A DNA stretch of 52,314 bases from an uncultured Bacteroidales bacterium (lineage in GTDB: Bacteria > Bacteroidota > Bacteroidia > Bacteroidales > WCHB1-69), in assembly GCA_946413585.1 (NCBI GenBank), contig CAMKLG010000016.1, forward strand, positions 1 to 52,314. Reading direction: 5' to 3'. Of this stretch, positions 2,684-23,814 are shown piece by piece. A program made the position numbers and the translations under genes. Positions within the stretch are counted from its first letter, which is position 1. Each line of letters begins with the position of its first letter. The notes beneath the pieces were generated by a model. The model was not told where the DNA came from, did no database searches, and worked only from the letters and a program-made list of their open reading frames with translations.

Positions 2684-2716
2684 AGAGCCGTCAAATTATG
2701 GCGGCTCTTATTTTAC
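2684..2716 (+). terminator. Intrinsic terminator after rnr
   Basis: GAGCCG (2685-2690) pairs with CGGCTC (2702-2707), followed by a T-rich run TTATTTTA. It overlaps the stop codon of the convergent gene at 2708. The hairpin is almost the same sequence as the terminator at 35117-35150 read on the opposite strand. Confidence 0.75.
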
Positions 2717-4774
2717 CAGCGTTACGGTGCCCGTTTGTTCTAAAACGGTGCCGTCAGGTATCTTGTATTCAACGTAATAGACATAAACGTTCATCGGGGC
2801 GACCACTCCATTAATGCGGCCGTCCCAACCTTCTTGCGGATTAGTGGTTATAAAGACACATTCTCCGGTGCGAGTGAAGATGGAGAAACGGTACCCATCA
2901 AGAGACACAAATGAATTGATGGGTTTGAAAACGTTGTTGTTCGCGCCCAAAGGCCGAAAAGCATTGGGAAAATACAATGATGGGGGTTGTATGAGTGTAA
3001 TATAGTTCGAGTAGCTGGTTTCGTCAAAGCCGTAGCTGTTTGTATTTTCTTGAGCTTCAATGTAATAAACGAATTTCGATCCCGATTCATATAAGGATGA
3101 AATATCGTCGGGATAATTGTTTTGGAGGCCGGGAGGAACATCTCCGATGGTATTGAACAGCTCTTCGCTTTCCACTTTCCGCATCACATAATAGTTTGAA
3201 ACGCCACCGTCCCAGTTCTCGTAGGCATGCCAAGTGAGCAGGTTGGTTTGTGCGTTGTTCTCACCTGTAAGCAAAATGTTGTGGGAAATGTTGGAATAGG
3301 CGACCTCCGCACCGCATTCGTTGACCAAATAAGTGCGATAATAGTACAAATGACGGCTGAAGTCCGCTAAACTGTCGTAAAATATGTATTCTTTGGTGCC
3401 AGAAACGTGGCTTACCGTCTTGAAAGGTTCGAAATCAGTGCCATTTTCACTCCGCAAAAGCGTAATCGTTTCGAACGGAAGCGTGTCACCGCTGGTCAGC
3501 ACTTTGATCTGGATATGGTGGTTGTCAATAACCGAAACGGAACGAATGTAGGAGAAATCCTGCGCTTCTTCCGCTGAAATCTGAAATCTGATGCGGTTGG
3601 AGCTCGCTGTGATGGTTTCCCCGTTATTGACCACGCGGACATAGGCAAGGTAATCGTGGTTGAACTGTAGATTTCCAATCTGGAAATTGTTTCCCGTGGT
3701 GTTCCCAATGAGATTCCAGCTCTGCCCCATGTCAGAGCTGAGGAAAATGTCGTATCGCAAAATTTCGTTGAGGAGGTTCGTGTAGGTGCTCCAATGGATG
3801 GAGGCGGATTTTTGGCATGCGTCGGTGGAATTCAGCATTAACCGCATGTTACACTGTTGGTTGTCAGTCAGCGCGGAGACGTTCCCACAGGAGTCCATCG
3901 CAGCAATCCGATAGAAACGAGAGTCCAAACTCGGATCCATCACGGGATCAATCCAAAACGTCTGGTCATAAACCGTATCGTAGGGGATGGTGCCGTTGGG
4001 GTTGACATAATAGATGATGAATGCCATCATGTAAGGCTCCGTGCCGTGAAAACCCAACATAACCTCGTTGTCAGAGGTCACCGTAACGCTGTCCAACATG
4101 GGAACGGACGGGCTGATACTGTCCATCAGATGTGCAGTAGCAATGGTGGTCATGAATGGACAACGTTCGTTTACACCGTAGAAGTTGGTGATACTTACCT
4201 GATAAGAAATGAGGGCATCGCAAACATCTGAGGTGTCTATGTATGTGAATTGGGTGTTGGGTACTGATGCACATGGGGTAGGGGGAAAGTCGGGCTCAAA
4301 TTCACGTTTCTTGTAGATGTCGAACGTGCTACCCCAGGAATTGTCCAGCACAGTGGTGGGCGACTCCCACTCAAGCCGGGCCATCGTGTTGTTGGCAATC
4401 GGGGTGACCGTGATGTTGATAGAGTGGAGGGTGTCGGAATAAAAGGCAGCTCCAGTGGAATCCACTGCCTTAATGTAACAGAAATATTCTTCAGCTACAG
4501 GAATGTTGTTGATGTCTTTGGATCCGTAGTCGCATAATGTAAATGTCTGAGTCTGACCCACATGGCCAGAAAGACTGTCGCAAAGAATGTTGTTGATGTA
4601 GAAATAGTAGGTCTTGAAGTGGATGCAATCCCCGTTGCTGCTCCATGCCATTTTCATTCGCTGATTATTGTTCATCAGCTTGAGACACTGCATCTTAGGC
4701 GGTTGCCATGCCCAACAACTGACGGTGACGACCATCAGCAAAACAAACAATAATTCTTTTTTCATCCGTTTCAT
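2708..4774 (-). CDS. Secreted FnIII-type protein with T9SS type B (CHU_C) sorting domain
   Basis: A 688-residue predicted surface protein. It has an N-terminal signal peptide (basic MKRMKK then a hydrophobic stretch to about residue 22), several fibronectin-III-like beta-sandwich modules, and a C-terminal 'gliding motility-associated' domain. The last part begins near Y-F-P-N-A-F-R-P, contains E-G-W-D-G-R-I-N-G and ends in T-V-T-L-V-K, the hallmarks of a type B T9SS signal. It should cross the inner membrane by Sec and the outer membrane by T9SS. Its ATG overlaps the stop of the M16-like gene by 4 bases (ATGA), so it is the last of four translationally coupled genes led by an ECF sigma factor. 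Its binding partner or enzymatic role cannot be told from sequence. Confidence 0.85.
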   Translation of the reverse strand: MKRMKKELLFVLLMVVTVSCWAWQPPKMQCLKLMNNNQRMKMAWSSNGDCIHFKTYYFYINNILCDSLSGHVGQTQTFTLCDYGSKDINNIPVAEEYFCYIKAVDSTGAAFYSDTLHSINITVTPIANNTMARLEWESPTTVLDNSWGSTFDIYKKREFEPDFPPTPCASVPNTQFTYIDTSDVCDALISYQVSITNFYGVNERCPFMTTIATAHLMDSISPSVPMLDSVTVTSDNEVMLGFHGTEPYMMAFIIYYVNPNGTIPYDTVYDQTFWIDPVMDPSLDSRFYRIAAMDSCGNVSALTDNQQCNMRLMLNSTDACQKSASIHWSTYTNLLNEILRYDIFLSSDMGQSWNLIGNTTGNNFQIGNLQFNHDYLAYVRVVNNGETITASSNRIRFQISAEEAQDFSYIRSVSVIDNHHIQIKVLTSGDTLPFETITLLRSENGTDFEPFKTVSHVSGTKEYIFYDSLADFSRHLYYYRTYLVNECGAEVAYSNISHNILLTGENNAQTNLLTWHAYENWDGGVSNYYVMRKVESEELFNTIGDVPPGLQNNYPDDISSLYESGSKFVYYIEAQENTNSYGFDETSYSNYITLIQPPSLYFPNAFRPLGANNNVFKPINSFVSLDGYRFSIFTRTGECVFITTNPQEGWDGRINGVVAPMNVYVYYVEYKIPDGTVLEQTGTVTLVK

Positions 4775-6069
4775 TCGTTAGCTAAATATTTACCAACGAT
4801 GATTTGAGTGAATTTATTGTAAGAGAAATGCTCTTTTGCCAAAAAAATGATTTTTTCGGCAGTAATGTCTTTTATTTCAGTAAGATAGCGATGCATTTCA
4901 GTCTCGTCTAATCCGAATCGATACCAGTAGGCGTATTTGAGCATGGTGTTCACGGAGGTGTCGGTGGCACGCAGCTGAATACCCACCATATAATTTTTCA
5001 CCATCGTGAGCTCGTCTTCGCTAACAGGTTCGCACTGAAGACGTTGCAGCTCTTCGAAGCAAGCGTCAATGGCTCGTTGGGTCTGATCGGCGTTTACATC
5101 ACTGCTGATGGCAAAAATGGATTGCCGTCCGAAGTAGGTGCTGGAAGCCGAAATACCATACGTAAGTCCTTGACTTTCACGTAGATTCTGCATTAGTCGC
5201 GAACTGAAGTATCCGCCGGTGAGCGTGCTCAGCACCGAGAAGGCACTACGATCAGGGTTGTTGAATCCCATGGACGGAAAACACAGCACCAGAGAGGATT
5301 GCAGGCAGTTTGGCATGGGTTGGAAGACCGGTTGGTTGCTCGGTAGGGTGACGGGAATGTTGGGCAAGGTAGGTGCTGCTGTGCCGTGCGGAACCGCCGA
5401 CCAAGTGCGTTCAATCGTCGCTTCTGTTTCGGCATCCAGATTACCAGTGACGAAAAGCGCGACCCTTTCCGCACAAAAAGTATCTTTGTGGAATGCTTGT
5501 AATTGGCTGGTACTGATGCTGTTGATAGTCTCACGGGTCGAGAAACTGGATACGGCAGGGAAGGTGTCGCCCAGCATCTCCCGCCACATCAGCCGCCATG
5601 AACAATAGTCGGTTTTCTGCTCGTTATAGGCCAGGTTTATCACCTCCTTCTCCTTCATGATTTGCAGATTTGACTCTCGATAAATGGGTGATATACAGAA
5701 AGATGAGATGATGGGCAGAATGTCTGAGATTTTGTCCTTCGGTACCGAAATCATCAGCTGGACGTTTTCCAATCCTACATTCACGGTGAAGTTTGTGCCG
5801 TAATAGTCCAATTTTTCGGAAACCTCCTCGGCCTGCAAGTCGGGTGCGCTTTCCCGAAGCAGCGAATAGGCAAAGTTGCAGATATTCTTTATCGGCTGAT
5901 AAAGAGAACCTGTTTTCACCTGTAACAGAATGTGTATCAAGTCTAAATTGGGGTTTTCAAAATAGAATACAGGAATGCCGTTTGATAATTGGCTCTGCCG
6001 GGGCTTCATCATGGAGAATGCCTCTATCGGCTGGATTTTCGGGGGAATGGATCTGTCTATGGGGGTCAT
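4771..6069 (-). CDS. M16 (insulinase-like) peptidase homologue lacking the zinc motif
   Basis: 432 residues with the two-lobe M16B fold. The N-terminal lobe has the L-D-Y-Y-G-T region, and the C-terminal lobe has R-E-S-Q-G-L-T-Y-G, the substrate-binding R/Y element. The zinc-binding H-x-x-E-H expected about 50-60 residues in is absent; the equivalent stretch reads N-I-C-N-F-A-Y-S-L-L. This is typical of the non-catalytic partners of M16 proteases and of a known Bacteroidales subgroup opening with 'IDR'. No signal peptide is present, so it is probably cytoplasmic. The start at 6069 is chosen because upstream codons belong to another frame and its ATG overlaps the preceding stop as TAATG. It is third in the sigma operon. 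No second, catalytic M16 gene is adjacent. Confidence 0.85.
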   Translation of the reverse strand: MTPIDRSIPPKIQPIEAFSMMKPRQSQLSNGIPVFYFENPNLDLIHILLQVKTGSLYQPIKNICNFAYSLLRESAPDLQAEEVSEKLDYYGTNFTVNVGLENVQLMISVPKDKISDILPIISSFCISPIYRESNLQIMKEKEVINLAYNEQKTDYCSWRLMWREMLGDTFPAVSSFSTRETINSISTSQLQAFHKDTFCAERVALFVTGNLDAETEATIERTWSAVPHGTAAPTLPNIPVTLPSNQPVFQPMPNCLQSSLVLCFPSMGFNNPDRSAFSVLSTLTGGYFSSRLMQNLRESQGLTYGISASSTYFGRQSIFAISSDVNADQTQRAIDACFEELQRLQCEPVSEDELTMVKNYMVGIQLRATDTSVNTMLKYAYWYRFGLDETEMHRYLTEIKDITAEKIIFLAKEHFSYNKFTQIIVGKYLANE

Positions 6070-6995
6070 TACGGTATTAAAAGTATTTGTCCTTGTTGCT
6101 TTTGGTCTTTTCCTTCGCTGTCTTTGTATTTGATGATATAGACATACATGCCTTGCGGCAAGGTGCTGCCGTGCAGTTGTCCGTCCCAACCGATATTGAT
6201 GTCGCGGGAGTGGAACAGCAGGTCACCGTTACGGCTCATGATGGTCATCTCAAAATTGCGCGGTTGAAAGTTCGCTTTTATGTAGAACAGGTCGTTCAGC
6301 CCGTCGCCGTTGGGCGTGAAAGCCGAAGGAATGAATAATTGGTCTGATTCAGTCTCTTCGGGCTCTGTTTCAGGTTCGGATTTGGAAGTGATGACTTCAC
6401 TAACTTCTTCTGTCTCAATTTTTTTAGAACTTGATTTGGGCGTTTGATGAACGATGGTCGTCGGTTTATGGACTTCAGTTGTTGACGGCAAAACGATGGA
6501 CGAAGGTTTTGCGGTAGTTACGGGATCTACTGATTCTTCATCCGTTTTTTCAGCAACGGTGGCTTGTGTTCTGGCTGTGACAGCGGAAGTCAAGGTAGTG
6601 CGTTCAGAGGTAGCCGCGGCAGTGGTATTTTTCACTTTTGCAGGGGTGGCAGTGGTTGACGTACTTTCCGAAACCGTAGCAACAGTGAAAGGCTCATTAT
6701 GTTGCCTTTGAGATGCAACGTCTTTGTTTACAGTGGTTTCTGTTGTCGCTGTGGCTTCCTGAACAGGTGCTTCTGATTCGTGGGAAAGCGTTTTTACCAA
6801 AATAGGGATGGCGATGAGTATAGCGACGAATCCCGCAATGATGCCTGCACGGCCTTTCGGTGAGAGCCTAGGCTTTCGTCCAAATTTCTGGATATAACGC
6901 TTGTCTTGGAGAATCGCCGACCATTCTTTCTCGGTGACGGGCGCCTCCAAGTGACGTAATTCTTCTATAGGGTTGGTACTCATATTCTTACTCAT
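6069..6995 (-). CDS. Single-span membrane protein with C-terminal T9SS type B-like (CHU_C) domain; possible anti-sigma/sensor
   Basis: 308 residues in three parts. The first is a charged N-terminal segment of about 48 residues with no signal peptide character. The second is one hydrophobic span at about 50-67. The third is a Thr/Ser/Glu-rich linker (about 70-215) followed by a complete CHU_C-type domain opening F-I-P-S-A-F-T-P-N-G-D-G, with G-W-D-G-Q-L-H-G and a final I-L-L-I-P. Predicted topology is N-terminus in the cytoplasm and CHU_C domain in the periplasm. It starts inside the sigma gene (8-nt overlap), the position normally held by an anti-sigma factor. I infer, without direct evidence, that the N-terminal segment controls the sigma factor. 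Alternatively it may be a membrane-tethered structural protein. No recognised zinc anti-sigma motif is visible. Confidence 0.75.
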   Translation of the reverse strand: MSKNMSTNPIEELRHLEAPVTEKEWSAILQDKRYIQKFGRKPRLSPKGRAGIIAGFVAILIAIPILVKTLSHESEAPVQEATATTETTVNKDVASQRQHNEPFTVATVSESTSTTATPAKVKNTTAAATSERTTLTSAVTARTQATVAEKTDEESVDPVTTAKPSSIVLPSTTEVHKPTTIVHQTPKSSSKKIETEEVSEVITSKSEPETEPEETESDQLFIPSAFTPNGDGLNDLFYIKANFQPRNFEMTIMSRNGDLLFHSRDINIGWDGQLHGSTLPQGMYVYIIKYKDSEGKDQKQQGQILLIP

Positions 6996-7551
6996 AGTTG
7001 AACTCTTCGTTTTTCAGATATTTTTTTATGCTTTTGCGCAACATTTGTTTAGCTCGAAAAATCAGACTGCGAACATTGGTGGGTCCTTCGTCCATGATCT
7101 TACTGATTTCAGTTTGATCCTTCTCCTCGATGACAAAGAGGTTGAAGGCGGTACGATACTTCGGAGGCAGTTTCTGAATATGCTCCAGTAACACGTCCAT
7201 CGGAATCCCATCGTAGTTGGGATTCTTGTCGTCCACGGGCTCTTCTATCGGTAAATGACTGGAAAGCACAGTGTTGTGGCTTTTCTTGTAACGCCACAAA
7301 TCAATTGCCTTGTGGGATGTGATCGTCTTCAGCCAACCACCGAGCGTCGTGATGTGGTCATATTCATCGAAATGAGTCAGAATATGCACAATCACATCGT
7401 GGAAAAGGTCTTCGGCTTCCTGCGTATCAGACGTATAACGCAAACATACGCCCTTGATCATAGGGCCGTAGTTGTCGTACAGCATCTTTTGGTAGGTTAC
7501 ATCGCCCTTCCGACAGCCATTAATGATTTCTATCTCTTCTTTTGTCAGCAT
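6988..7551 (-). CDS. ECF-type RNA polymerase sigma factor
   Basis: 187 residues with sigma-70 region 2 (about 20-90, including D-T-Q-E-A-E-D-L-F-H-D and the region-2.4-like W-L-K-T-I-T-S-H-K-A-I-D-L-W-R) and region 4 (about 120-180, L-P-P-K-Y-R-T-A-F-N-L-F and a helix-turn-helix). Regions 1 and 3 are missing, as in extracytoplasmic-function sigma factors. It leads a four-gene operon in which every junction overlaps (8, 1 and 4 nt), so its expression is tied to the downstream membrane protein, M16 homologue and secreted protein. ECF sigma factors usually activate their own operon, but I see no clear promoter in the 71-bp upstream gap, which is mostly A/T tracts. Confidence 0.92.
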   Translation of the reverse strand: MLTKEEIEIINGCRKGDVTYQKMLYDNYGPMIKGVCLRYTSDTQEAEDLFHDVIVHILTHFDEYDHITTLGGWLKTITSHKAIDLWRYKKSHNTVLSSHLPIEEPVDDKNPNYDGIPMDVLLEHIQKLPPKYRTAFNLFVIEEKDQTEISKIMDEGPTNVRSLIFRAKQMLRKSIKKYLKNEEFNYE

Positions 7552-7622
7552 TTCTTCTTAAAGACTAGGACGAAAAAGGCGTGCTTTTGTTGCAAAAAAA
7601 ATGAAAAAAAATATCGTTAGGG

Positions 7623-12524: not shown

Positions 12525-13028
12525 TTAACGTTTTTTCTTTCCTGCATTCACAGGCCCGGTTGTATCTTTCTTCGCCTCTTTTCTCTTTTGGGTTATCTCC
12601 CTTTTGTATTTGTATTCCAAATTGTAAAGGTCTTGTATGTGCTTGGGAGTCAGGATGGTTTTGTATTTCTTGTAGTAAGTGGTCTCCAAATTCAGGAGTG
12701 TCTTGCGCAATTCGAATTTTTGGTCTTGAAGGTAAGAAAGCTGTTTGTCGGTCAGTTTTTCTATGATTTCTTTGTTCGTACCTGGCGCACCCAGTTTTAT
12801 GCCCTGTTTCTCCAGATTCTTACGGTAATCATTCATGGCTTTCATCTCGTCGTTGAGGTACTGCTCATACACACTCCAGAAACTTTGGCTCTCTTTACTG
12901 GCTAGAGATAAGTTCTCTTTCATGTAAGACAAGCGCTCCTGAGCCATGGTTTTGGGAGTCTTCTCCTGCGCGAAGAGTGAGGAGGTGGCTATAGCTATGA
13001 TAATCAGCGAGATCCAAACTTTTTTCAT
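12525..13028 (-). CDS. Small secreted protein, Spy/CpxP-like (helical, periplasmic)
   Basis: 167 residues. A signal peptide (M-K-K-V-W-I-S then hydrophobic, ending S-L-F-A-Q) is followed by an almost entirely helical, Lys/Glu/Gln-rich chain with L-T-D-K-Q-L-S-Y-L-Q and a later L-T-P-K-H motif, recalling the LTxxQ motifs of Spy/CpxP/ZraP periplasmic chaperone-sensors. The C-terminus is strongly basic. The start at 13028 is preferred to an ATG nine codons upstream because the signal peptide begins there. It is last in an operon with an ECF sigma factor and a membrane anti-sigma-like protein, a context in which such proteins often act as envelope-stress sensors or outputs. The Spy likeness is by pattern only. 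Confidence 0.7.
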   Translation of the reverse strand: MKKVWISLIIIAIATSSLFAQEKTPKTMAQERLSYMKENLSLASKESQSFWSVYEQYLNDEMKAMNDYRKNLEKQGIKLGAPGTNKEIIEKLTDKQLSYLQDQKFELRKTLLNLETTYYKKYKTILTPKHIQDLYNLEYKYKREITQKRKEAKKDTTGPVNAGKKKR

Positions 13029-13044
13029 GATATTAGATTTTTGA

Positions 13045-13377
13045 TTAGTATTCATAATTTTGATAATAATCTAACATGGCCAATTCCTCACTGTAGTAAT
13101 CTTCTGCCACCAGCTCTAAGGCCTCTTCTTCTTCTATGTTTGCGGCAATTTGTTGGTTTTGAGTGATTTCTGTAGATTGTTTTGGCGTATTATAGGTAAA
13201 GAAGATTCCGATGGCCACTGCAATGACGGCCACGGCTGCCACGGCCGATGAGATGATTGTTCTCTTTTTGCGCTGCTCCTGATGGATATTTTGCATGACC
13301 CTGTCTGGCAGCTCATCAAAATAATTATCCGGAACCTGGTAGTATTCCTTTTTCTCTATGTTTTCTAAATCGATCAT
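13045..13377 (-). CDS. Small single-span membrane protein, likely anti-sigma factor
   Basis: 110 residues: a charged cytoplasmic N-terminal part of about 38 residues (with Y-Y-Q-V-P-D-N-Y-F-D-E-L-P), one transmembrane span at about 41-60, and an acidic extracytoplasmic tail rich in Glu and Tyr. The P-x-x-Y-F-x-x-L-P element is common at the N-terminus of small Bacteroidota proteins encoded next to ECF sigma factors. It lies 38 nt downstream of a sigma gene and 16 nt upstream of a small periplasmic-protein gene. Size, topology and position indicate an anti-sigma role. No zinc-binding motif is visible. Confidence 0.72.
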   Translation of the reverse strand: MIDLENIEKKEYYQVPDNYFDELPDRVMQNIHQEQRKKRTIISSAVAAVAVIAVAIGIFFTYNTPKQSTEITQNQQIAANIEEEEALELVAEDYYSEELAMLDYYQNYEY

Positions 13378-13415
13378 AACAAATGTGAATTACAAAACTA
13401 ATGACTTCGGAATAT

Positions 13416-13973
13416 TTAAAAGGTTAAACGCTCTGAAATATTTTTTTTGATTTTTTCTGCGGCGAAATGGTAAGAAGCTTTCAGCGCACTTTCGGAGGTG
13501 TCGAAAATCTTGGACATCTCGGCATAGGGCGTTTCGTCATAGTAACGCATCGTGAATACCGCACGTTGTTTCGGCGGTAACTTGACAATCTCTTCTTGCA
13601 GGATTTGTTCTATCTGGCCTGGCGAAAATGTGCTGGTGTCTGCCTGACTAATCAGCAGGAAGTTGGTGTAATTGTCGTCATCCAGATTCAGCAGTTTCTT
13701 TTTCTTCTCAATGTATGTCAACGCCTCATTAATGCAGATTCTTGATATCCAAGTCTTTAGGCTGGATTCGCTTCTGAACTTGTCGAGATTGCGCCAGATT
13801 TTGATACATACGTTTTGCGTGACATCGTCAGCATCCTCATGGATGGTGACGATGCGCCGCGCACTGTAATAGATGTGCTTCTGGTACTTTTTCAGCAACA
13901 TTTCGAAGGCCTTCTCTTTGGTCTTATCGTTACTGAAGAGCGACAAGATAAATTCGTCGGTAATTTCAGGCAT
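13416..13973 (-). CDS. ECF-type RNA polymerase sigma factor
   Basis: 185 residues with region 2 (about 20-90: Y-S-A-R-R-I-V, H-E-D-A-D-D-V-T-Q-N-V, then W-I-S-R-I-C-I-N-E-A-L) and region 4 (about 125-180: L-P-P-K-Q-R-A-V-F-T-M-R-Y-Y, E-M-S-K-I-F, S-E-S-A-L-K-A-S-Y-H-F-A). The region 4 sequence ('RAVF.MRYYDE..Y.EMS') is typical of Bacteroidota RpoE-like factors. It lies 14 nt downstream of the transketolase-half gene and 38 nt upstream of the anti-sigma-like gene. It differs clearly in sequence from the other sigma factor at 6988-7551, so the two are not recent duplicates. Confidence 0.93.
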   Translation of the reverse strand: MPEITDEFILSLFSNDKTKEKAFEMLLKKYQKHIYYSARRIVTIHEDADDVTQNVCIKIWRNLDKFRSESSLKTWISRICINEALTYIEKKKKLLNLDDDNYTNFLLISQADTSTFSPGQIEQILQEEIVKLPPKQRAVFTMRYYDETPYAEMSKIFDTSESALKASYHFAAEKIKKNISERLTF

Positions 13974-14961: not shown

Positions 14962-14982
14962 CGAAATTTGAGAAAAGAGAGT

Positions 14983-14990
14983 TATCTTTG
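14983..14990 (+). promoter_or_regulatory. Predicted -7 element (TATCTTTG) for the 15016 outer-membrane protein gene
   Basis: Exact TAnnTTTG match 26 nt before the ATG at 15016, supporting that start over the ATG at 14968, which lies upstream of the element. Confidence 0.6.
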
Positions 14991-15015
14991 CGGCAATTAT
15001 TTGTCGGTTATTTTG

Positions 15016-18000
15016 ATGAGAGATTTTTTGCGCTTATTACTCTGTATGCTTTGCGCCAGCTGCGTCGCGAAAATGTCGGCACAGCAGGCGGGCGATTTGC
15101 ACTTCCGTCATATCGATGCCGACAATATGGTGATACGTCTGGATACCTGCTCAATTGATCCGCAAACATTTTATATACAGAATGTTAGCTTGTCTCAATA
15201 TCGTCTGGATCCGTTGACTTCGACCCTCTATTTGCGCGATTCTGCATTGTTAGGTACGCGCATTTTTGTGCAATATAAAACCTACACCTTCGACCTGTCA
15301 AAGCCTGTTGCGCACCGCTCCTTACGGGAGGTGGAACCCGGTAGGAGAGGGCACGAAATCGCTGAGATCCCATCGACACCGTTCGCTGATTTGCTGAATG
15401 ACCAGTCGTTATACACCAATGGTTCTATTTCACGCGGTGTTTCAGTGGGAAATAACCAGGATTTGGTGCTTAATTCATCGCTTAACTTGCAGATTTCCGG
15501 AAAGTTATCTGAGGATGTTGAGATAATGGCCTCTGTGACAGATAAGAACATTCCTATACAACCCGAAGGGAACACCCAAACGCTTCAAGACATAAGCAGT
15601 ATCTTTATTACTGTGAAAATCAAAGAGATGGCGTTGCTCAATGCCGGTGATGTGGTATGGCACTGCGATAGTGATAACTTCCTGAAAGTTTCTCGGAACA
15701 TGTTGGGATTGAATGCCATGGTGCGCTCGAAACCCAAGGAGAAGGTCAAAATGTTCAACCAGGCAGGTGGAGGTATGGCCAAGGGTAAGTTCACCCGACA
15801 GACGGTGACGGTGCAGAATGGCGTGCAAGGTCCTTACAAACTCTACGGTGCCGACGGCGAAGTCTCCATCTTGATGGTCGCCGGTTCGGAGCGGGTCTAT
15901 GTGGATGGTCAGCTGCTGACGCGTGGTGCGGAAAATGACTACGTTGTAGATTATAACACCGCGGAAATCACTTTTACTCCCAAGATGCTGATGACTGCTG
16001 AAAAGCGCGTTATCGTTGAGTTTGAGTATTCCAACCGACATTATTCTCGATATAACCTCTTCACGCAAAACGAGATAGAAGTAGATGGCAAGATTCCTTT
16101 CAAACTGCGCCTCAATCTTTTTCATGAGCAAGATTTGAAGAATCACTCTATTCAGCCAGAACTTACGGTAGATCATAAGCGATTTCTAGCGGAGTTAGGA
16201 GATGCAGGAGCTATCGCATATTACCCTGTGGCGGATTCCGTGGCCTATACTCCCGACCGTGTTTTGTATGAAAAAATGGATACAATCTACAATAATAATA
16301 TATATACCATATATAAGTGTTCTACCAACAGTAATTCGCAGCTATATAGCCCTTCCTTTACCTATATGGGCACAAAAAAAGGTAATTATCAGCTGGTTAG
16401 CAGCACGGCGAATGGAAGAGTTTTTGCATGGGTCGCTCCTGATGGAGATATTCCCCAAGGCGATTATGAGCCGGTGTTGTTGCTCACCGCTCCGACTTCC
16501 CAGCAGATGGCTACATTGGGAATTGACCTCGCATGCCGTAATAATACTTTGGTAACCAGTGAATTGGCGATTTCTCATTATGATATTAACACCTTTTCGA
16601 AGCACGATCGTCAGAATGATGTGGGGCTTGCCTATTTGTTGAAGGTGAATGATGTGGAAAAGTTCGCCTCTGACAAGGATTCCTTACCGTGGTTGCTCAC
16701 AAGTCATGCGCAATTGCAATACATACATCAAAACTTTACTCCATTTGAGTCTTTTCGTGAGGTGGAATTCGCACGTGACTACAATTTGGCCTCTGATTAC
16801 GCCCATAATTGCGCCGAATGGTGGTTGCAGGCAGGAGTGGCATTCTCGAAACGGAAATTCCACCAGTATCTCTACGACTTCCATTGGTTTAACCGCGTTG
16901 GTGAGGTGAATGCGTTGCACAATGAGTTGCAAACCGATGATTATTGGCAAACGTGGCATTTTAAAACTCGCAACAGCTTCCTTCTGACTCGCGATTCCAT
17001 ACAGAAAAGTCGCTACTGGGTGTCTCGAATCCAACTCGCCAAACAGTGGAAGTGGATAACGGCTGATATAGACAACTTGTTGGAATACAATGTGTTTCAC
17101 GATGCTGAGAGTGGAATGCCAAGGCTTAACAGCTATGCATTCAACGAGCTGAACGCAGCCCTACGAAGCCCAGAAAAAGCAAAGCACCAGTGGCTCTTGG
17201 GTTATAAGAATCGTGTGGAATGGACTCCTGACAGTCTGCACATGCGTCCCCATTTGCTGGTGCATGAGTTCAAAACGCAGTACCAATTCGCGCAAATTAA
17301 GAACCAAAGTTTCCTGTTGAATGCCACCTATCGTCGCCAATCGATTTTCGATTCTTTGCAGAAGGGACATGCAGAGAACTATTTTGTTGGTAATCTGCAA
17401 TATACAGGAAGATTCTTGCACAACGCTTTGATTATCAACACTTACTATGACGTAGGGAGCGGCATGGAACTGAAAAAGACCTTTACCTATATCAAAGTGG
17501 CGACGGGTCAAGGCACGCATGTCTGGAACGATTATAACGGTAATGGCATTCAGGAATTGGATGAATTCGAAGTGGCAAAGTTTGTGGATCAGGCTGACTA
17601 TGTGAAAGTTTGGATTGCGGGAACGGATTATGTCAATGTCTATCAGAACCAGTGGACGCAGAGTGTCCAGCTGCGTCCGGCAGCTGTATGGGCTAATAAG
17701 AAGGGCTTCCGCAAGTTCCTGTCTCGTTTCTCCAACGTGCTGTCTATCAATACTTCTCTGAAACATAAAACCAGAATGTTCATCCCATTCTCCTTCTCGG
17801 AGACAGATTCGAATCTGGTGGCGAATCGCACCAATATCACGAATACCTTCTCTTTCAACAACAGCAGTTCAAAATTCGCGTTCGACTTTATTGTACAAGA
17901 TGCTTCCAATACACAGTTTCTATATTATGGATTAGAGACTAATAAGGTTAAGTATCAGGAAGTTATATTGAAGAGCACGCCGATAACCCCTCTGTATCTA

Positions 18001-18465
18001 CAAACCTCTTTCCTGCATAATAACACGTTGAATCACTCTACTTACTTCTCCTCAAGATGTTATCAAGTGGAGTCTTTTTCGACGGATTTATTGGTCAGAT
18101 TACAACTATGGAACCGATTGACGGCTTCTGTCGTTGGGCAGTATGCGCACAGAGTAAATCGGCAGGGGGTAGAACATGTGGATCGCTACAGAGCGGAACT
18201 ATTGGCTGAATATCGCATGTTAGAGAAGGGAACCTTTTCATTGTCAGCTGAATACGTCTATTTGAAAGGAGATGTAGGTCAGAACTCTTCCGTTTCCTAT
18301 TTCTTAACAGAAGGTTTGTCGATGGGGCAGAACCTGCTTTGGACTGCTACATGTCAGTTCTCTGTCACGCAGTTCCTTCAGTTGTCTGTGCATTATCAGG
18401 GGCGAGCGATGCAGGGGCATTCGGTTATCCACACGGGAAATGTCACGGTGAGTGCCCTGTTTTAA
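15016..18465 (+). CDS. Large uncharacterised outer-membrane beta-barrel protein
   Basis: 1149 residues from the chosen start, where a signal peptide begins (M-R-D-F-L-R-L-L-L, ending near K-M-S-A-Q). I do not recognise a named family. The N-terminal third has the segment S-I-S-R-G-V-S-V-G-N-N-Q-D and N-I-P-I-Q-P-E-G-N-T-Q, which I associate only loosely with other large Bacteroidota outer-membrane proteins. The C-terminal two thirds alternate aromatic and polar residues as in beta strands, and the protein ends in Phe, like many BAM-inserted barrels. An EF-hand-like D839-Y-N-G-N-G-I-Q-E-L-D-E-F-E loop suggests calcium binding. It lies directly upstream of porP in the same direction, so a T9SS-related role is possible but unproven. 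Confidence 0.72.
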   Translation: MRDFLRLLLCMLCASCVAKMSAQQAGDLHFRHIDADNMVIRLDTCSIDPQTFYIQNVSLSQYRLDPLTSTLYLRDSALLGTRIFVQYKTYTFDLSKPVAHRSLREVEPGRRGHEIAEIPSTPFADLLNDQSLYTNGSISRGVSVGNNQDLVLNSSLNLQISGKLSEDVEIMASVTDKNIPIQPEGNTQTLQDISSIFITVKIKEMALLNAGDVVWHCDSDNFLKVSRNMLGLNAMVRSKPKEKVKMFNQAGGGMAKGKFTRQTVTVQNGVQGPYKLYGADGEVSILMVAGSERVYVDGQLLTRGAENDYVVDYNTAEITFTPKMLMTAEKRVIVEFEYSNRHYSRYNLFTQNEIEVDGKIPFKLRLNLFHEQDLKNHSIQPELTVDHKRFLAELGDAGAIAYYPVADSVAYTPDRVLYEKMDTIYNNNIYTIYKCSTNSNSQLYSPSFTYMGTKKGNYQLVSSTANGRVFAWVAPDGDIPQGDYEPVLLLTAPTSQQMATLGIDLACRNNTLVTSELAISHYDINTFSKHDRQNDVGLAYLLKVNDVEKFASDKDSLPWLLTSHAQLQYIHQNFTPFESFREVEFARDYNLASDYAHNCAEWWLQAGVAFSKRKFHQYLYDFHWFNRVGEVNALHNELQTDDYWQTWHFKTRNSFLLTRDSIQKSRYWVSRIQLAKQWKWITADIDNLLEYNVFHDAESGMPRLNSYAFNELNAALRSPEKAKHQWLLGYKNRVEWTPDSLHMRPHLLVHEFKTQYQFAQIKNQSFLLNATYRRQSIFDSLQKGHAENYFVGNLQYTGRFLHNALIINTYYDVGSGMELKKTFTYIKVATGQGTHVWNDYNGNGIQELDEFEVAKFVDQADYVKVWIAGTDYVNVYQNQWTQSVQLRPAAVWANKKGFRKFLSRFSNVLSINTSLKHKTRMFIPFSFSETDSNLVANRTNITNTFSFNNSSSKFAFDFIVQDASNTQFLYYGLETNKVKYQEVILKSTPITPLYLQTSFLHNNTLNHSTYFSSRCYQVESFSTDLLVRLQLWNRLTASVVGQYAHRVNRQGVEHVDRYRAELLAEYRMLEKGTFSLSAEYVYLKGDVGQNSSVSYFLTEGLSMGQNLLWTATCQFSVTQFLQLSVHYQGRAMQGHSVIHTGNVTVSALF

Positions 18466-18791
18466 CCCCATCTGGATTATCCCAGAAACTTTTATTTTAC
18501 GTTAAATATCTGATATTTAGTTTATTGTGTTTAATTGACGTTGTAATTTGTTGAAATTCAGACGTTTGTTGAAACGGTGAGTAATATTTTGAGAAAATTG
18601 TTAATTCGAGGGATTTTATACCGAAAAATATGCTATTTTTGGCACTTCAAAAAAATTTGGTAAAATGTATTATGTAACTTTTTGAGTGGAGTGGTCGTAT
18701 AGAATAAGAAATGACATTTTTTCAATGTTGAAAAAGTTGTGTAATACATTGATTGTTAGAAAATTAATGTAGAACCCAAGTCATATAAAGT
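18466..18791 (+). other. 326-bp gene-free leader of the porP-gldN operon
   Basis: AT-rich with no supported reading frame. It holds a TATTTTTG element at 18634-18641, which would give a 5' leader of roughly 145 nt before porP. I see no clear terminator for the upstream gene and no riboswitch I recognise. Several TTG/TTTG words around 18540-18580 could be further promoter elements. Confidence 0.6.
18634..18641 (+). promoter_or_regulatory. Predicted -7 element (TATTTTTG) for porP-gldKLMN
   Basis: Fits TAnnTTTG, about 150 nt upstream of the porP ATG. No good -33 TTG at the normal spacing, so this is tentative. Confidence 0.4.
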
Positions 18792-19838
18792 ATGAGAAAG
18801 TATATACAAAAAGTTGGTCTGTTGGTGCTCTTGGCAATGTCTGCGATGATGTCAGGTTTTGCTCAAGATGATGCGCAATTCACCTTTTTTCCGTGGGTGA
18901 CATCCTATTATAACGCCGGCGGAATAGGGGAGCAGCATAATACTTTGTGTTTTACGGCAGACTATAATAACAAATATCTGGGGTGGGGAGATCTCTCCAC
19001 AACAGCCATCACCAATGATTCGGCAAAGCATACGGCTCCCCAGGATTTCCTCTTCAGTGTGGAATCGTATCTGAAGAAACTGCATGGTTCTTTGGGACTT
19101 GTGCTCGTACATGACAGACTTGGTTTCTACAGCAACACAGGTATTAAGTTAGGGTATGCTTATAAATTAAGAGTCGGTGGGGGAAATCTCGGCATCGGTT
19201 TCCAAGCTTCGTTATTTAACCAGAAGCTGGATGCGAGTGGACTTCGTCCAACTCAGGAAGGAGACCCGACGCTTACACAGCTTAACGAATCCACGTTGGA
19301 TTTTGACGTTAACCTTGGCGTATTGTACAAAACAGACCAATGGTATGTTGGCTTGGGTTGGACGCAGATTGCAGCGTTGTTTGATAAGAAACAAGCGCTT
19401 CGTTTGTCAGGCGAATATGGTTCTAGACGTTCGTCGCAACTCTATTTGCATGGCGGTTACACATGGGTGATGCCGTTTAACCCGAACTGGGAATTGCTTC
19501 CACAGGCTTTGGTGAAGACCGATTTCAGTACCTTCCAATGGGAAGTTCTGGTGTTGGCTCGTTACAACGGTGTATATTGGGGTGGTCTTGGCTATCGCTT
19601 CCAAGATGCTGTGTCACTGGCCTTTGGCGCACGTCCGTTCTACAACTCATCCAACATATATCTTAAAGGTTTGGACTTGGGTATTTCATACGGCATCACG
19701 GCTAACAATTTAGCCTATAAAAAGAACAGAAGCTTTGGTGATGTTGAGGTCGTAGTTCGCTATTGCTTTGATATTTACAAGCCTGAGGTCTTCTCTGGTT
19801 ACGGTAATTCACGTTATATTTATAAGAACAGATACTAA
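18792..19838 (+). CDS. porP: T9SS outer-membrane protein PorP (PorP/SprF family)
   Basis: 348 residues with a signal peptide (ending M-S-G-F-A-Q) and a barrel-like C-terminal region. The PorP/SprF signature is present: early F-x-N-x-G-G-like element (Y-N-A-G-G-I-G), repeated G-Y/G-Y-x-L-R-V-G strands, and L-G-I-S-Y-G-I-T near the end, where family members carry D-x-S-Y-D. PorP is needed for T9SS export and attachment of the periplasmic ring to the outer membrane. It is the first of five closely spaced genes, the porP-K-L-M-N order of Bacteroidales. It is a little longer than usual. Confidence 0.9.
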   Translation: MRKYIQKVGLLVLLAMSAMMSGFAQDDAQFTFFPWVTSYYNAGGIGEQHNTLCFTADYNNKYLGWGDLSTTAITNDSAKHTAPQDFLFSVESYLKKLHGSLGLVLVHDRLGFYSNTGIKLGYAYKLRVGGGNLGIGFQASLFNQKLDASGLRPTQEGDPTLTQLNESTLDFDVNLGVLYKTDQWYVGLGWTQIAALFDKKQALRLSGEYGSRRSSQLYLHGGYTWVMPFNPNWELLPQALVKTDFSTFQWEVLVLARYNGVYWGGLGYRFQDAVSLAFGARPFYNSSNIYLKGLDLGISYGITANNLAYKKNRSFGDVEVVVRYCFDIYKPEVFSGYGNSRYIYKNRY

Positions 19839-19893
19839 AAATCAACATAGTAACGTTAATAACGATATTGAAATAAATTAAAACAGAAAAAAT

Positions 19894-21324
19894 ATGAAAC
19901 GGGTAATCATTCTTTTCGCAGCGGCATTCATCTTCATGGTGTCGTGTCAGAACGGCGGCGACGGTCAGCTCGTCGGCGTGAAAGACCGTCCGGAATTCTC
20001 CGACCTGGAGCCTTTCGGCATGGTGTATGTCCCTACCGGCCACTATGTGATGGGTGGTGGTGACCAAGATGTTCCGTTTGCTCTCACCCAGCAGTCTCGC
20101 AACGTGACCGTTGCCGCTTTCTGGATGGACGAGACGGAAATCACCAACAATGAGTATCGTCAATTCGTGTATTGGGTGCGCGACTCTCTCGCACACGTGC
20201 TTCTCGGCGATGCTGAAATCACCGAGGCTGAGAAATACGGCCACTATCTGAAATATGATAAGGGTGAGAATGAGGGTGAAATCATTGAGCCTAAGTTGAT
20301 TAACTGGAAGGAAAAGATTCCTTGGGATTCTGACAATGAGGAGGTGCAATCCGCTTTGTCTCCTTTGTTCAGCAAGTTAAACACCCGTTTTTACCACTAT
20401 AGTTCCAAGAGATATAACGTCTCAATGTTCAACTATGAATATTGGTGGTTCGATTATCGCAACTATAGAGATCCTAAGGATCCCGACAACTTCGGTGCTT
20501 CTTATAAGGAGTTTGAAAAAGAGGGCAATGACTACGGTGGTATCTACGCCAACCGTCCCAGCAGCATGGGCAACGGCTACCAGCGCTTCATCAAGCATGA
20601 GGTTGTGAACATTTACCCTGATACCTTGTGCTGGGCTCACGACTTCGTCTATTCTTACAACGAGCCGATGATCCTGAATTACTTCAACAACCCGCAATAT
20701 GACAATTACCCGGTTGTGGGTGTTAGCTGGCGTCAGGCAAAGGCATTCTCCAGCTGGAGAACCCAATTGCGTATGTCATGGCTTTCCGGTAAGGAATACG
20801 CTTTCGAGCACGAGTTCCGTTTGCCTTCCGAGGCTGAGTGGGAATGGGCTGCTCGCGGCGGTAACTCTCTCGCCTCCTACCCGTGGGGCGGTCCCTACAC
20901 CGTCAACCAAAACGGTTGTTTCTTGAGCAACTTTAAACCGCAACGCGGTAACTATATCGCTGACGACAACTTCTATCCTGGCATCGTGGCACATTATCAT
21001 CCCAATGACTGGGGCTTGTTCGACATGAGCGGCAACGTGGCAGAATGGTGTGAAGACGCATACGACGAATCCGCCACCAACTTCACCCACGACATGAACC
21101 CGTCTTACGTCTATTATGCTGCGAAGGACGATTCTCCCGTGAAGAAGAGAAAAGTGATCCGCGGTGGCTCTTGGAAGGATGTCAGCTACTATACTACGGT
21201 GTATGCCAGAACCTACGAATATCAGGATACTTGTAAATCCTACGTCGGTTTCCGTAATGTGCAGTCCTTCATGGGACGTCAGAGAGGCGACAACAACAGC
21301 AGAAGTGCTTCTCACGTTTACTAG
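19894..21324 (+). CDS. gldK: T9SS ring lipoprotein GldK/PorK
   Basis: 476 residues. A lipoprotein signal is visible (M-K-R-V-I-I-L-F, V-S-C18-Q). The body is a formylglycine-generating-enzyme/sulfatase-modifying fold: M-V-Y-V-P-T-G-H-Y-V-M-G-G-G at the start, D-E-T-E-I-T-N-N-E-Y-R, L-P-S-E-A-E-W-E-W-A-A-R-G-G, D-M-S-G-N-V-A-E-W-C and the final V-I-R-G-G-S-W. GldK/PorK keeps the fold without the enzyme activity and forms, with GldN/PorN, the large periplasmic ring attached to the outer membrane. The 55-nt gap after porP and 59-nt gap before gldL fit a single transcript. Codon use is rich in C-ending codons, suggesting high expression. Confidence 0.97.
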   Translation: MKRVIILFAAAFIFMVSCQNGGDGQLVGVKDRPEFSDLEPFGMVYVPTGHYVMGGGDQDVPFALTQQSRNVTVAAFWMDETEITNNEYRQFVYWVRDSLAHVLLGDAEITEAEKYGHYLKYDKGENEGEIIEPKLINWKEKIPWDSDNEEVQSALSPLFSKLNTRFYHYSSKRYNVSMFNYEYWWFDYRNYRDPKDPDNFGASYKEFEKEGNDYGGIYANRPSSMGNGYQRFIKHEVVNIYPDTLCWAHDFVYSYNEPMILNYFNNPQYDNYPVVGVSWRQAKAFSSWRTQLRMSWLSGKEYAFEHEFRLPSEAEWEWAARGGNSLASYPWGGPYTVNQNGCFLSNFKPQRGNYIADDNFYPGIVAHYHPNDWGLFDMSGNVAEWCEDAYDESATNFTHDMNPSYVYYAAKDDSPVKKRKVIRGGSWKDVSYYTTVYARTYEYQDTCKSYVGFRNVQSFMGRQRGDNNSRSASHVY

Positions 21325-21383
21325 ACCAAACAATCGAAATTTTCATCAAAAACATAAATCATTAACTTAAAAAAATCAAACAA

Positions 21384-22130
21384 ATGGGTAAAATTGATCA
21401 AATCGTTAGATCGAAAGCTTACAAAAACGGTATGGCTAAATTGTACGGCTGGGGTGCTTCAGTCGTCATCATCGGTGCATTGTTCAAAATTTTGCACTTG
21501 CCCGGTGCTAACATCATGCTTATCTTAGGTATGGGTATTGAGGCCGTCATCTTCTTCTTCTCTGCATTCGAACCTCTGCATGTGGAGTACAACTGGGCAT
21601 TGGTTTATCCCGAGTTGGCTACTGGCACTGATATCGAACTCGAAGAGGGCGAGAAGAAATCCCGTCGTGAGAAAAAACAAATGGTGAAAAACGATGCGTT
21701 GTCCACCACTCAGGCTTTAGATAAAATGCTTGAAGAGGCTAAGATCGGTCCCGAACTGATGGAAAGCTTGGCAACGGGTATGCGTAACTTGAGCAACAAC
21801 GCTCAAAAGCTGGCCGGCGTTTCCGATGCCGTTGTTTCTACCGACAACTATACCGCAAGCCTTCAGAAAGCTTCTGAATCTGTGCGTAATTTGACCCTGA
21901 AATATGACAAGGTCGCTGCTAATCTCGATACCGATGGCGGCGCAACCGCAGCTTATATCGAAAGCGTTAAGAAAGCAACCACCGCTGTCGCCCAATTGGC
22001 TGTCGCTTACGATCAGACTGCCAAGTCTATGGCACAAACCAATAGCTTCAAGGCTGAGATGGATAAGTTAACCGCTAATATCTCCAAGTTGAGCAATGTT
22101 TATGGTAACATGCTCGCTGCAATGAAATAA
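21384..22130 (+). CDS. gldL: T9SS inner-membrane motor protein GldL/PorL
   Basis: 248 residues. Two transmembrane helices near the N-terminus (about 24-37 and 42-60) carry charged residues inside or at the ends of the spans, including K35, E53 and E63. In F. johnsoniae, conserved Glu residues in the second helix of GldL take part in proton-driven rotation; E53 and E63 have the same 10-residue spacing, so I infer they are the equivalents. The rest is a long soluble cytoplasmic helical domain. GldL forms a pentamer around the two GldM helices and powers secretion with the proton motive force. It lies between gldK and gldM. Confidence 0.97.
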   Translation: MGKIDQIVRSKAYKNGMAKLYGWGASVVIIGALFKILHLPGANIMLILGMGIEAVIFFFSAFEPLHVEYNWALVYPELATGTDIELEEGEKKSRREKKQMVKNDALSTTQALDKMLEEAKIGPELMESLATGMRNLSNNAQKLAGVSDAVVSTDNYTASLQKASESVRNLTLKYDKVAANLDTDGGATAAYIESVKKATTAVAQLAVAYDQTAKSMAQTNSFKAEMDKLTANISKLSNVYGNMLAAMK

Positions 22131-22175
22131 TTCTCGTTTAGTTCAAAACCATTACTAACTAAAATTATTTGAGAT

Positions 22176-23792
22176 ATGGGTGCAACAAATTGTCCGGAAA
22201 CCCCGAGACAGAAAATGATTCAGATGATGTACCTGGTGTACACCGCCATGTTGGCCTTGAACGTCTCTGCTGAGATTTTGAACGCCTTCGTGGTCGTGGA
22301 TGACACCCTGGTGACTTCCACCAACATCGCAGCCAACCAGAATGCCAATGATTATCAATGGTTCCTGGCTCAAAAGACTATTTTGGGTGCGAAAGTTGAC
22401 GATGCTTACAATAAGGCTCAGATTTTGAAGAAAGAGTCTGACGCTATGGTGAAATTCATAGAAAAGATGCGTAACGACCTCATTTTTGCCGTTGATGGCG
22501 ATTCACTCACCGATGGCAAAAAGGGACCGAAAGAACTGAAAACGGTAGCTACTATTGTTAAAAAGGATAACTTCGACGTTCCGACAGACTTCATGATTCG
22601 TCAAGGTAACGCGGCGAAACTGAAGGCTGAAATCAAGAAGTATAAAGCTAATGTTTTGAAACTCGCGAAGAAGGAAGACCAAAAGCGCCTCGAAGAGGGT
22701 ATGGGTCTGAACGTGGATGCTACTTATACCAAAGATATGAATACCGTATCTTGGGAAGAGCATAACTTCGATCACATTATCGCTGCCGCTTCCGCCACCC
22801 TGTTGAACAAGATGGTCGGCGAAGTGAAAAACGCTGAGTCGATGATGCTGAACTACTTGAAAGCATCTATCAGTGCTGACGACTTCAAGTTCGACCAAGT
22901 CAGTGGTCGTTCTATCCCGAAATCCCAGATGGTGTTCTCCGGCGACGCTTACGAAGCCGACATTATTGTGGCTGCTTACGATAGCAAAGCTACCCCTGAA
23001 GTTTGGTACAAGATGGGCGCAGATACGTTGACAGTTGACGGTATCGGCTCTGCTACCAAGTTGGAGGGCGAGAACGGTCTTGTGAAACTGAAAATCGGTA
23101 CCAGTGGTACAGGTGAACAGAAATATGCTGGCTTGATCAAGGTGGTCGGTCCTGGCGGTGAGGCTAAATATTATGGCTTCAAGGATAAATACACGGTATT
23201 GCAACCTTCTGCAACTATTGCAGCTGACAAGATGAATGTGCTGTATGCAGGTATTTCCAACCCTGTGTCTGTGTCTGGTCCTGTTGCTCCCGACAAATTG
23301 AGCGTTTCCTTCCCGGGTTGTAACGCTTCCAATCAGGGCGGTGGTAAATTCAATGTGAGTGTGCCTACCAGCTTGATAGGAAAGACGGTTCAAGCTACCG
23401 TATCAGCCAAGGTTGGTGAGAGCAGCAAGACTTTGGGTCAAACCACTTTCCGTGTGAAGAAAGTTCCGGATCCGCGTGCCGTTTTGGGTGCTAATATCCG
23501 TGGTGGTAAACGCGCTAAAGCCGAGTTGTTGGCTAACCCGCTGATCCGTGCAGCTATGGGTGATGATTTCGTCTATGACTTGAAATGGAAAGTCAACTCT
23601 TACCGTGTCATCATCGTGAGCAAAGGTATGGAGGAACCTGCTATCGTTTGTCAGGGTAGTGCTTTAAGCGAGAAGGCTAAATCCGCTATTCAGAAAGCTT
23701 CCTCTAACACCGTTATCTATTTCACCGACATCAAGGTCTCTTCTGAGGCTGGCTCTCGTACTTTGGACGAATTCTCGGTTCGTATAAGATAA
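22176..23792 (+). CDS. gldM: T9SS motor/periplasmic shaft protein GldM/PorM
   Basis: 538 residues. One N-terminal transmembrane helix (about 16-34) follows the motif P-R11-Q-K-M-I-Q-M-M-Y-L-V-Y. That arginine aligns with the conserved Arg of GldM which pairs with GldL glutamates in the proton-driven motor. The long periplasmic part carries the D1-D4 beta/helical domains that reach from the inner-membrane motor to the GldK/GldN ring. The length matches the family (about 510-540). It starts 45 nt after gldL and is followed by gldN 22 nt later. Confidence 0.97.
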   Translation: MGATNCPETPRQKMIQMMYLVYTAMLALNVSAEILNAFVVVDDTLVTSTNIAANQNANDYQWFLAQKTILGAKVDDAYNKAQILKKESDAMVKFIEKMRNDLIFAVDGDSLTDGKKGPKELKTVATIVKKDNFDVPTDFMIRQGNAAKLKAEIKKYKANVLKLAKKEDQKRLEEGMGLNVDATYTKDMNTVSWEEHNFDHIIAAASATLLNKMVGEVKNAESMMLNYLKASISADDFKFDQVSGRSIPKSQMVFSGDAYEADIIVAAYDSKATPEVWYKMGADTLTVDGIGSATKLEGENGLVKLKIGTSGTGEQKYAGLIKVVGPGGEAKYYGFKDKYTVLQPSATIAADKMNVLYAGISNPVSVSGPVAPDKLSVSFPGCNASNQGGGKFNVSVPTSLIGKTVQATVSAKVGESSKTLGQTTFRVKKVPDPRAVLGANIRGGKRAKAELLANPLIRAAMGDDFVYDLKWKVNSYRVIIVSKGMEEPAIVCQGSALSEKAKSAIQKASSNTVIYFTDIKVSSEAGSRTLDEFSVRIR

Positions 23793-23814
23793 TAAAAATC
23801 AAAAAAATACAATT

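Follow-up and report, generated by a model that had tools for sequence, protein, structure and literature searches.

A conserved ECF sigma factor operon with a membrane-anchored CHU_C protein suggests a circuit for cargo control in type IX secretion

Introduction

The subject of this work is a four-gene operon of an uncultured Bacteroidales bacterium (lineage WCHB1-69) that joins an extracytoplasmic function (ECF) sigma factor to proteins of the type IX secretion system (T9SS). It lies on contig CAMKLG010000016.1 of assembly GCA_946413585.1, of which a stretch of 52,314 nt (the window) was analysed as a whole, and its genes are here called SIG (the sigma factor), MEM (a membrane protein and candidate anti-sigma factor), M16 (a zinc-less M16 subunit) and cargo (CHU). 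By analogy, Dma is the nearest known design to the SIG/MEM pair; the available text on these proteins describes an anti-sigma region, a membrane span, a disordered tether and a beta-barrel (PMC13088901). A regulatory link to the T9SS is known from the PorXY-SigP system of Porphyromonas gingivalis, in which, according to the available passages, SigP controls genes of T9SS components and acts together with PorX (PMC4800418, PMC7712824). In Flavobacterium psychrophilum, the ECF-type promoters named SM6 have a CGT-box −10 element and are associated with T9SS genes and an ECF/anti-sigma pair, again as far as the accessible part of the report goes (PMC9723704).

We consider it probable that SIG and MEM form a sigma/anti-sigma pair that serves the cargo genes of the T9SS, and that the T9SS signal carried by MEM couples the release of SIG to the secretion machine. 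At the level of sequence, this proposal is supported by the conservation of the operon, a predicted autoregulatory promoter, a predicted cargo regulon and the architecture of MEM; from these we infer that SIG binds MEM, that the T9SS engages MEM, and in which direction the circuit responds. In the open-access literature we found no description of a CHU_C anti-sigma factor or of T9SS cargo control by such a pair, nor of any matching of T9SS cargo production to machine capacity in Bacteroidota. The regulators that do appear in that literature (SigP and SM6) concern, in the passages available, the machine's own genes.

Results

The operon and its promoter

A preliminary description of this DNA, made from the letters alone, had placed four overlapping genes here and proposed that the sigma factor may respond to T9SS activity or substrate load through the second protein. 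The four minus-strand open reading frames (ORFs) are indeed found at those positions (Table 1), with overlaps of 8, 1 and 4 nt; the first of these depends on the start chosen for MEM, since conservation favours the ATG at 6983 and this start leaves a 4-nt gap after SIG instead. SIG contains sigma70 regions 2 and 4 only, the make-up of an ECF (group IV) factor. The C-terminus of MEM matches CHU_C (E 9.9e-18, 64.5 bits, Pfam cut-off 27) and TIGR04131 (57.2 bits, cut-off 35), and that of the cargo protein passes the Pfam CHU_C cut-off of 27 narrowly (E 1e-6, 29.2 bits) and stays below the NCBIfam TIGR04131 cut-off of 35 (27.1 bits). The two signal domains are homologous to each other (hhalign, 99.6%).

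The motif TG[CT]AA[CT]-N16/17-CGT[CT] is present at −34 to −51 upstream of SIG in 30 of the 33 genus loci, and is off by one base in the remaining ones (L044, L045 and L048); a related GCAAC..TGTC motif can be seen by eye before SIG in many loci of other families. Since this conserved motif is of the ECF type, with an AAC-like −35 element and a CGT −10 element, it suggests that SIG autoregulates its own operon. Within the window, TGCAAC-N16-CGTY has a single occurrence, and this is before SIG.

A predicted regulon of T9SS cargo genes

The earlier idea that SIG may control T9SS cargo gains ground from the recurrence of the SIG promoter motif upstream of other T9SS cargo genes. The regulon counts rest on exact patterns, so that members may be missed. 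The comparison set consisted of 138 of 150 CHU_C matches, after removal of three short fragments and of nine matches that fell under the cut-off, and it includes the MEM and cargo genes of the operon. TGCAAC-N16-CGT[CT] was found at the 5' end of 16 of these 138 ORFs, on the same strand, in seven genomes, and none of the 16 is in the operon; on the opposite strand the count is 0 and a uniform spread would give 0.16, which amounts to an approximately 100-fold enrichment.

With a weight matrix built from the SIG promoters only, 60 CHU_C genes from three genomes were scored. Eight of them reach at least 12.9 (seven at least 19.4), all with the site between 48 and 63 nt ahead of the first ATG, and the next best gene reaches 9.1; the SIG promoters themselves score 16.1–31.6. 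In the genome to which the window belongs (own genome), 26 sites other than that of SIG itself were classified. All five that score at least 20 are intergenic and precede T9SS cargo genes, three of type B and two of type A (Table 1), and the T9SS signals of the five proteins are above the curated cut-offs; the sites ranked next, at 18.9 and 18.5, lie inside genes. In two relatives, a motif site precedes a type A protein (G028, L316) or is followed 145 nt downstream by a non-cargo, enzyme-like ORF (G013, L317). Among relatives of the L298 protein, one of the five top targets, the motif (score at least 15) occurs in 12 of 30 loci, which indicates that membership of the regulon turns over.

In all ten genomes that have both motifs, the SIG promoter and the cargo promoter share the same base, C or T, at the third position of the −35 box. 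At residue 161 of SIG, in the helix of region 4.2, all 23 C-type loci have R, and six of eight T-type loci have S.

Two proteins under the SIG motif (L306 1651-2073 and L308 1439-1876) are very short, at 140–145 aa, with a CHU_C domain and a signal-peptide-like start; each of these genes is followed by one for a large secreted-looking protein.

Architecture of MEM

In 31 aligned MEM sequences, the mean column identity is 0.52 in the cytosolic N-terminus, 0.31 in the linker and 0.65 in the CHU_C domain, which keeps the canonical type B sequence and is the best conserved part of the protein. One N-terminal span with positive-inside charge predicts an N-in topology in all 31 rows, as judged by hydropathy and composition. 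The N-terminus contains one invariant proline and one invariant tryptophan (P16 and W22). The linker measures 134–176 residues in 28 of the 31 rows (it is over-measured in the other three), and about 70% of it is P, S, T, A, E, N or Q. MEM-like partners in other families also have a span and a C-terminal CHU_C domain, with the P..W motif in most rows.

These features fit an anti-sigma factor in gene position, in topology and in the conserved cytosolic N-terminus, and MEM would sense the T9SS through its CHU_C domain. We have also considered whether MEM is plain secreted cargo, and rejected this because of its charged cytosolic N-terminus and internal span.

Conservation of the locus

The genus search covered 60 relatives, of which 35 belong to the same genus. 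A MEM ortholog was found in 32 of these 35 (in two pieces in G017), and the three genomes without one are 51–63% complete. Of the 32 orthologous loci, 30 retain SIG-MEM-M16-cargo as the gene order, the other two (L031 and L049) being cut by contig ends. With the starts chosen in this analysis, the median intergenic gaps are 1, 3 and 4.5 nt.

The preliminary description had taken conservation of the gene order beyond close relatives as a test of its proposal, and the order does extend that far. From 247 sampled genomes of the order (four from the genus), 40 non-genus loci were drawn among the best cargo and MEM matches. All four genes stand in order in eight of these loci, from six other Bacteroidales families; one lacks only M16, two have SIG-MEM-M16, and five have SIG-MEM with neither the inactive M16 nor the cargo gene. 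SIG-MEM was not seen in 24 of the 40, some of which are cut by contig ends. Counted by named organism, the complete ordered set is present in 33 of 43 loci, contig ends interrupt two (L348 and L366), one is SIG-MEM-cargo (L374) and seven are without SIG-MEM; this count is not independent of the former, as several of the loci are the same contigs. The named records are of uncultured Bacteroidales, many naming ruminants or horse. A profile search of 198 genomes of the phylum gave mostly long CHU_C proteins among the matches listed, with at least four ORFs of MEM size (300–377 aa) among them.

The T9SS core operon has a different promoter

The window also carries a T9SS core operon, porP-porK-porL-porM-porN, at 18792-24759, with a promoter at 18673. 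The porP promoter in the window is ECF-like, TGTAACTTTTT..CGTATA, and its core motif TGTAACTT..GTA(T/A) is shared by 29 of 30 genus loci, where it mostly lies 113–121 nt before porP. Because this conserved motif is not that of SIG, control of porPKLMN by SIG was set aside; with the core operon under another promoter, SIG appears to control cargo rather than the secretion machine. A PglZ protein of the size of PorX, which is probably PorX itself, is present in 35 of 40 genus genomes, and each of the 23 with the best completeness and purity has it. A SigP-like factor may thus direct the core, with the cargo genes under SIG and perhaps a second sigma factor, SIG2.

Other sigma factors and neighbouring genes

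In the own genome there are 12 ECF matches, and for nine of them the downstream gene was identified, two of these genes ending in CHU_C. Such a neighbour is found only for SIG and for its paralog SIG2 (L412, Table 1); none of the CHU_C matches adjoins the other ten ECF genes. The SIG2 motif has five matches in the own genome, which include SIG2 itself and a type B gene (C36, 971-aa frame); the remaining ones precede a secreted-looking protein of at least 469 aa and a lipoprotein-like gene, or have no credible downstream gene.

The window contains a second ECF sigma gene at 13416-13973 (region 12525-13973), followed by genes for a short single-span protein and for a 176-aa protein with a signal-peptide-like start. 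Between this sigma gene and porP lies a 1165-aa ORF (14968-18465) that has no NCBIfam match. Two adjacent genes encode large secreted-looking proteins, one with a type A T9SS signal at its end (41672-46336) and one that runs off the window (46578-52313). The SIG motif was not seen by eye in the 140 nt upstream of either gene.

The M16 subunit

The third gene had been described as a zinc-less M16 homologue, and the HxxEH motif is in fact absent in all 31 genus rows. M16_C is matched, the match to the M16 N-domain is weak and below the cut-off, and the best match of the M16 profile is PDB 3amj. A catalytic M16 (HLFEH or HLMEH) lies upstream of SIG in six non-genus loci. In eight other loci, in which SIG-MEM was not seen, a catalytic-type M16 adjoins the inactive one; in one of them (L140) the contig begins within the catalytic-type gene, whose motif was not seen. 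The genus operon is without a catalytic M16, and unlinked homologs occur elsewhere in both genomes checked (G030 and G021), 49% and 44% identical, respectively, to the catalytic M16 of G141.

The pair of a catalytic-type and an inactive M16 is itself recurrent (L140-L143, L146, L150, L153 and L161), mostly beside a type B cargo gene; in L132, L135, L136, L138 and L170 it has SIG-MEM between or beside its members.

Table 1. Positions and assignments of the operon features, of the top predicted SIG targets and of the paralogous sigma gene
Feature	Location	Strand	Basis
SIG, ECF sigma factor, 187 aa, sigma70 regions 2 and 4	6988..7551	(-)	ORF and family searches
MEM, 308 aa (304 aa with the ATG at 6983 as start), candidate anti-sigma factor	6069..6995	(-)	ORF and family searches
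Predicted membrane span of MEM, residues 52-70	6786..6842	(-)	hydropathy
Type B T9SS signal (CHU_C) at residues 222-305 of MEM	6081..6332	(-)	family searches
M16, zinc-less M16 subunit, 432 aa	4771..6069	(-)	ORF and family searches
CHU, secreted cargo, 688 aa, signal-peptide-like N-terminus (by eye)	2708..4774	(-)	ORF and family searches
CHU_C domain of cargo, residues 602-684, divergent type B signal	2723..2971	(-)	family searches
ECF promoter TGCAAC-N16-CGTC, predicted to be autoregulatory, 43 nt before the SIG start	7569..7594	(-)	motif
Top predicted target, type B, 764 aa	own genome, L298		NCBIfam and Pfam
Top predicted target, type B, 958 aa	own genome, L299		NCBIfam and Pfam
Top predicted target, type B, 733 aa	own genome, L300		NCBIfam and Pfam
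Top predicted target, type A, 1563 aa	own genome, L337		NCBIfam and Pfam
Top predicted target, type A, 672 aa, ATG 183 nt downstream	own genome, L314		NCBIfam and Pfam
SIG2, second ECF/CHU_C pair (SIG2/MEM2), motif TGTAAC-N17-CGACT	own genome, L412, C1:40039-40542		

Discussion

A proposed tethered pseudo-substrate of the T9SS

In the circuit that we propose, the short cytosolic N-terminus of MEM would hold SIG at the inner membrane, and the span and the long disordered tether would put the type B domain in the periplasm, within reach of the outer-membrane translocon or of a PorP-like receptor. Type B proteins do bind PorP-like proteins through this kind of C-terminal domain (CTD), according to the available text of a study on them (PMC9143113). 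MEM would then be a tethered pseudo-substrate of the T9SS: a machine that is present and has free capacity would engage its CHU_C domain, pulling or proteolysis would release SIG, and the freed SIG would drive transcription of a group of T9SS cargo genes as well as of its own operon; with real cargo occupying the machine, SIG would remain held. A known precedent for such logic is FlgM, a soluble anti-sigma factor that is exported by the flagellar machine whose late genes sigma-28 controls. We tentatively suggest, as one possible form of the circuit, that the T9SS treats MEM as a tethered substrate and that an idle machine frees SIG, so that cargo is expressed only with export capacity at hand; this would be a FlgM-like checkpoint, with at least two parallel circuits (SIG/MEM and SIG2/MEM2) of separate promoter specificities in one genome. 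Release driven by engagement is favoured here because it is the best fit to a regulon made of cargo.

Several observations weigh against the proposal. In seven genus genomes TGCAAC-N16-CGTY has 132 matches, compared with 131 for the reversed control, and the signal is thus positional only. The motif is absent from most CHU_C genes (52 of 60), and in 18 of 30 genus loci the cargo gene of the L298 type (choice-of-anchor) has no motif of good score, the frame being truncated or interrupted in some of these 18. In other families the M16 pair and the cargo gene often occur without SIG-MEM. The C/T switch took place once on the SIG tree (87/88 support), and the agreement in ten of ten genomes is therefore one event; it was rejected as statistical proof, and the co-variation of the promoters with SIG residue 161 is suggestive only. 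Finally, the SIG2 motif has 14 matches in eight genomes, fewer than its reversed control (34), so that these matches argue only weakly for a SIG2 regulon.

Alternative readings

The same pair and regulon could also work with the opposite polarity, although we think this unlikely: a docked CHU_C domain would stabilise MEM, and overload or failure of the T9SS would displace it, with the result that MEM is degraded and SIG freed. RseA and sigma-E are an envelope-stress design of this kind. The architecture of MEM fits this arrangement equally well, and in Dma the loss of the anti-sigma protein turns the sigma factor on, as far as the available text tells (PMC13088901). A stress response that produces more cargo would, however, worsen the overload.

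A second alternative, which also seems rather improbable, keeps SIG/MEM as the pair for the cargo genes and takes the CHU_C domain as a stable periplasmic beta-sandwich that senses something other than the T9SS. CHU_C-type domains are beta-sandwiches, and the contact of MEM with the T9SS is itself a prediction of ours. Yet the domain in MEM is canonical type B, homologous to the cargo signal and better conserved than the rest of the protein; moreover, the paralogous pair in this genome has CHU_C as well, and the predicted regulon is one of T9SS cargo.

Less probable still is that the cargo promoters belong to another sigma factor of similar specificity and that SIG controls its own operon only. 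The own genome does hold 12 ECF matches, and related motifs exist before SIG2 and porP; but among the upstream regions of sigma genes that were inspected, TGCAAC-N16-CGTC was found only before SIG, and SIG and cargo promoters have the C/T state in common in all ten genomes, though as one event. The least probable reading is that MEM is an inner-membrane assembly factor or an anchored cargo co-transcribed with SIG, as might be thought from a cytosolic part of about 45 residues without a match to known anti-sigma families in family searches; against it, MEM directly follows the ECF gene in 32 of 32 genus loci and in 16 loci of other families, five of which have neither M16 nor cargo, and P and W are invariant in its cytosolic end.

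We therefore return to SIG and MEM as a sigma/anti-sigma pair for cargo genes. In this pair the anti-sigma candidate is itself marked with a signal for the T9SS, and it is the cargo of this machine that its sigma factor appears to control; if the reading is true, some gut Bacteroidales may match the production of cargo to its export. The proposal predicts a promoter motif, named target genes and a swappable sensor domain.

Comparison with known systems

Like Dma, MEM is encoded next to an ECF sigma gene and has a cytosolic region, one span and a long disordered tether, and its C-terminal domain would likewise be tied to the outer membrane, a trait that is predicted in the case of MEM. Where Dma has a beta-barrel, MEM has a CHU_C domain, the T9SS type B signal, which makes up its last 85 residues or so; for this reason MEM was not filed as a Dma protein. 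The predicted SIG regulon consists of T9SS cargo, whereas that of Dma, in the text available, consists of vesiculation genes or genes of polysaccharide utilization loci.

SIG resembles SigP, as far as the accessible passages describe it, in being a putatively autoregulated ECF sigma factor connected with the T9SS, and the PorXY-SigP system in having a CTD protein implicated in the signal (PorA there, and probably MEM here). It differs in having a CHU_C partner, the passages available naming no adjacent anti-sigma candidate for SigP, and in a motif that marks cargo, the core operon here being under another promoter. The available account of SM6 likewise links promoters with a CGT-box −10 to T9SS genes and an ECF/anti-sigma pair; it differs from the SIG promoters in that SM6 serves machine components such as GldN and PorU, and the porP promoter of the window is the closer parallel.

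Its lack of HxxEH, and the catalytic homolog adjacent to it in other families, liken the zinc-less M16 to the inactive subunit of M16 heterodimers (PDB 3amj), and it may be one half of such a pair; unlike these heterodimers, the genus operon is without a catalytic M16. The likeness to FlgM and sigma-28 is one of logic, in that the anti-sigma factor (here MEM) would be addressed to the secretion machine whose genes the sigma factor serves; in contrast to the soluble and exported FlgM, MEM is predicted to be membrane-anchored and carries a T9SS signal domain. If the SIG/MEM reading is true, the tethered anti-sigma design of the Dma type would be extended to the sensing of secretion.

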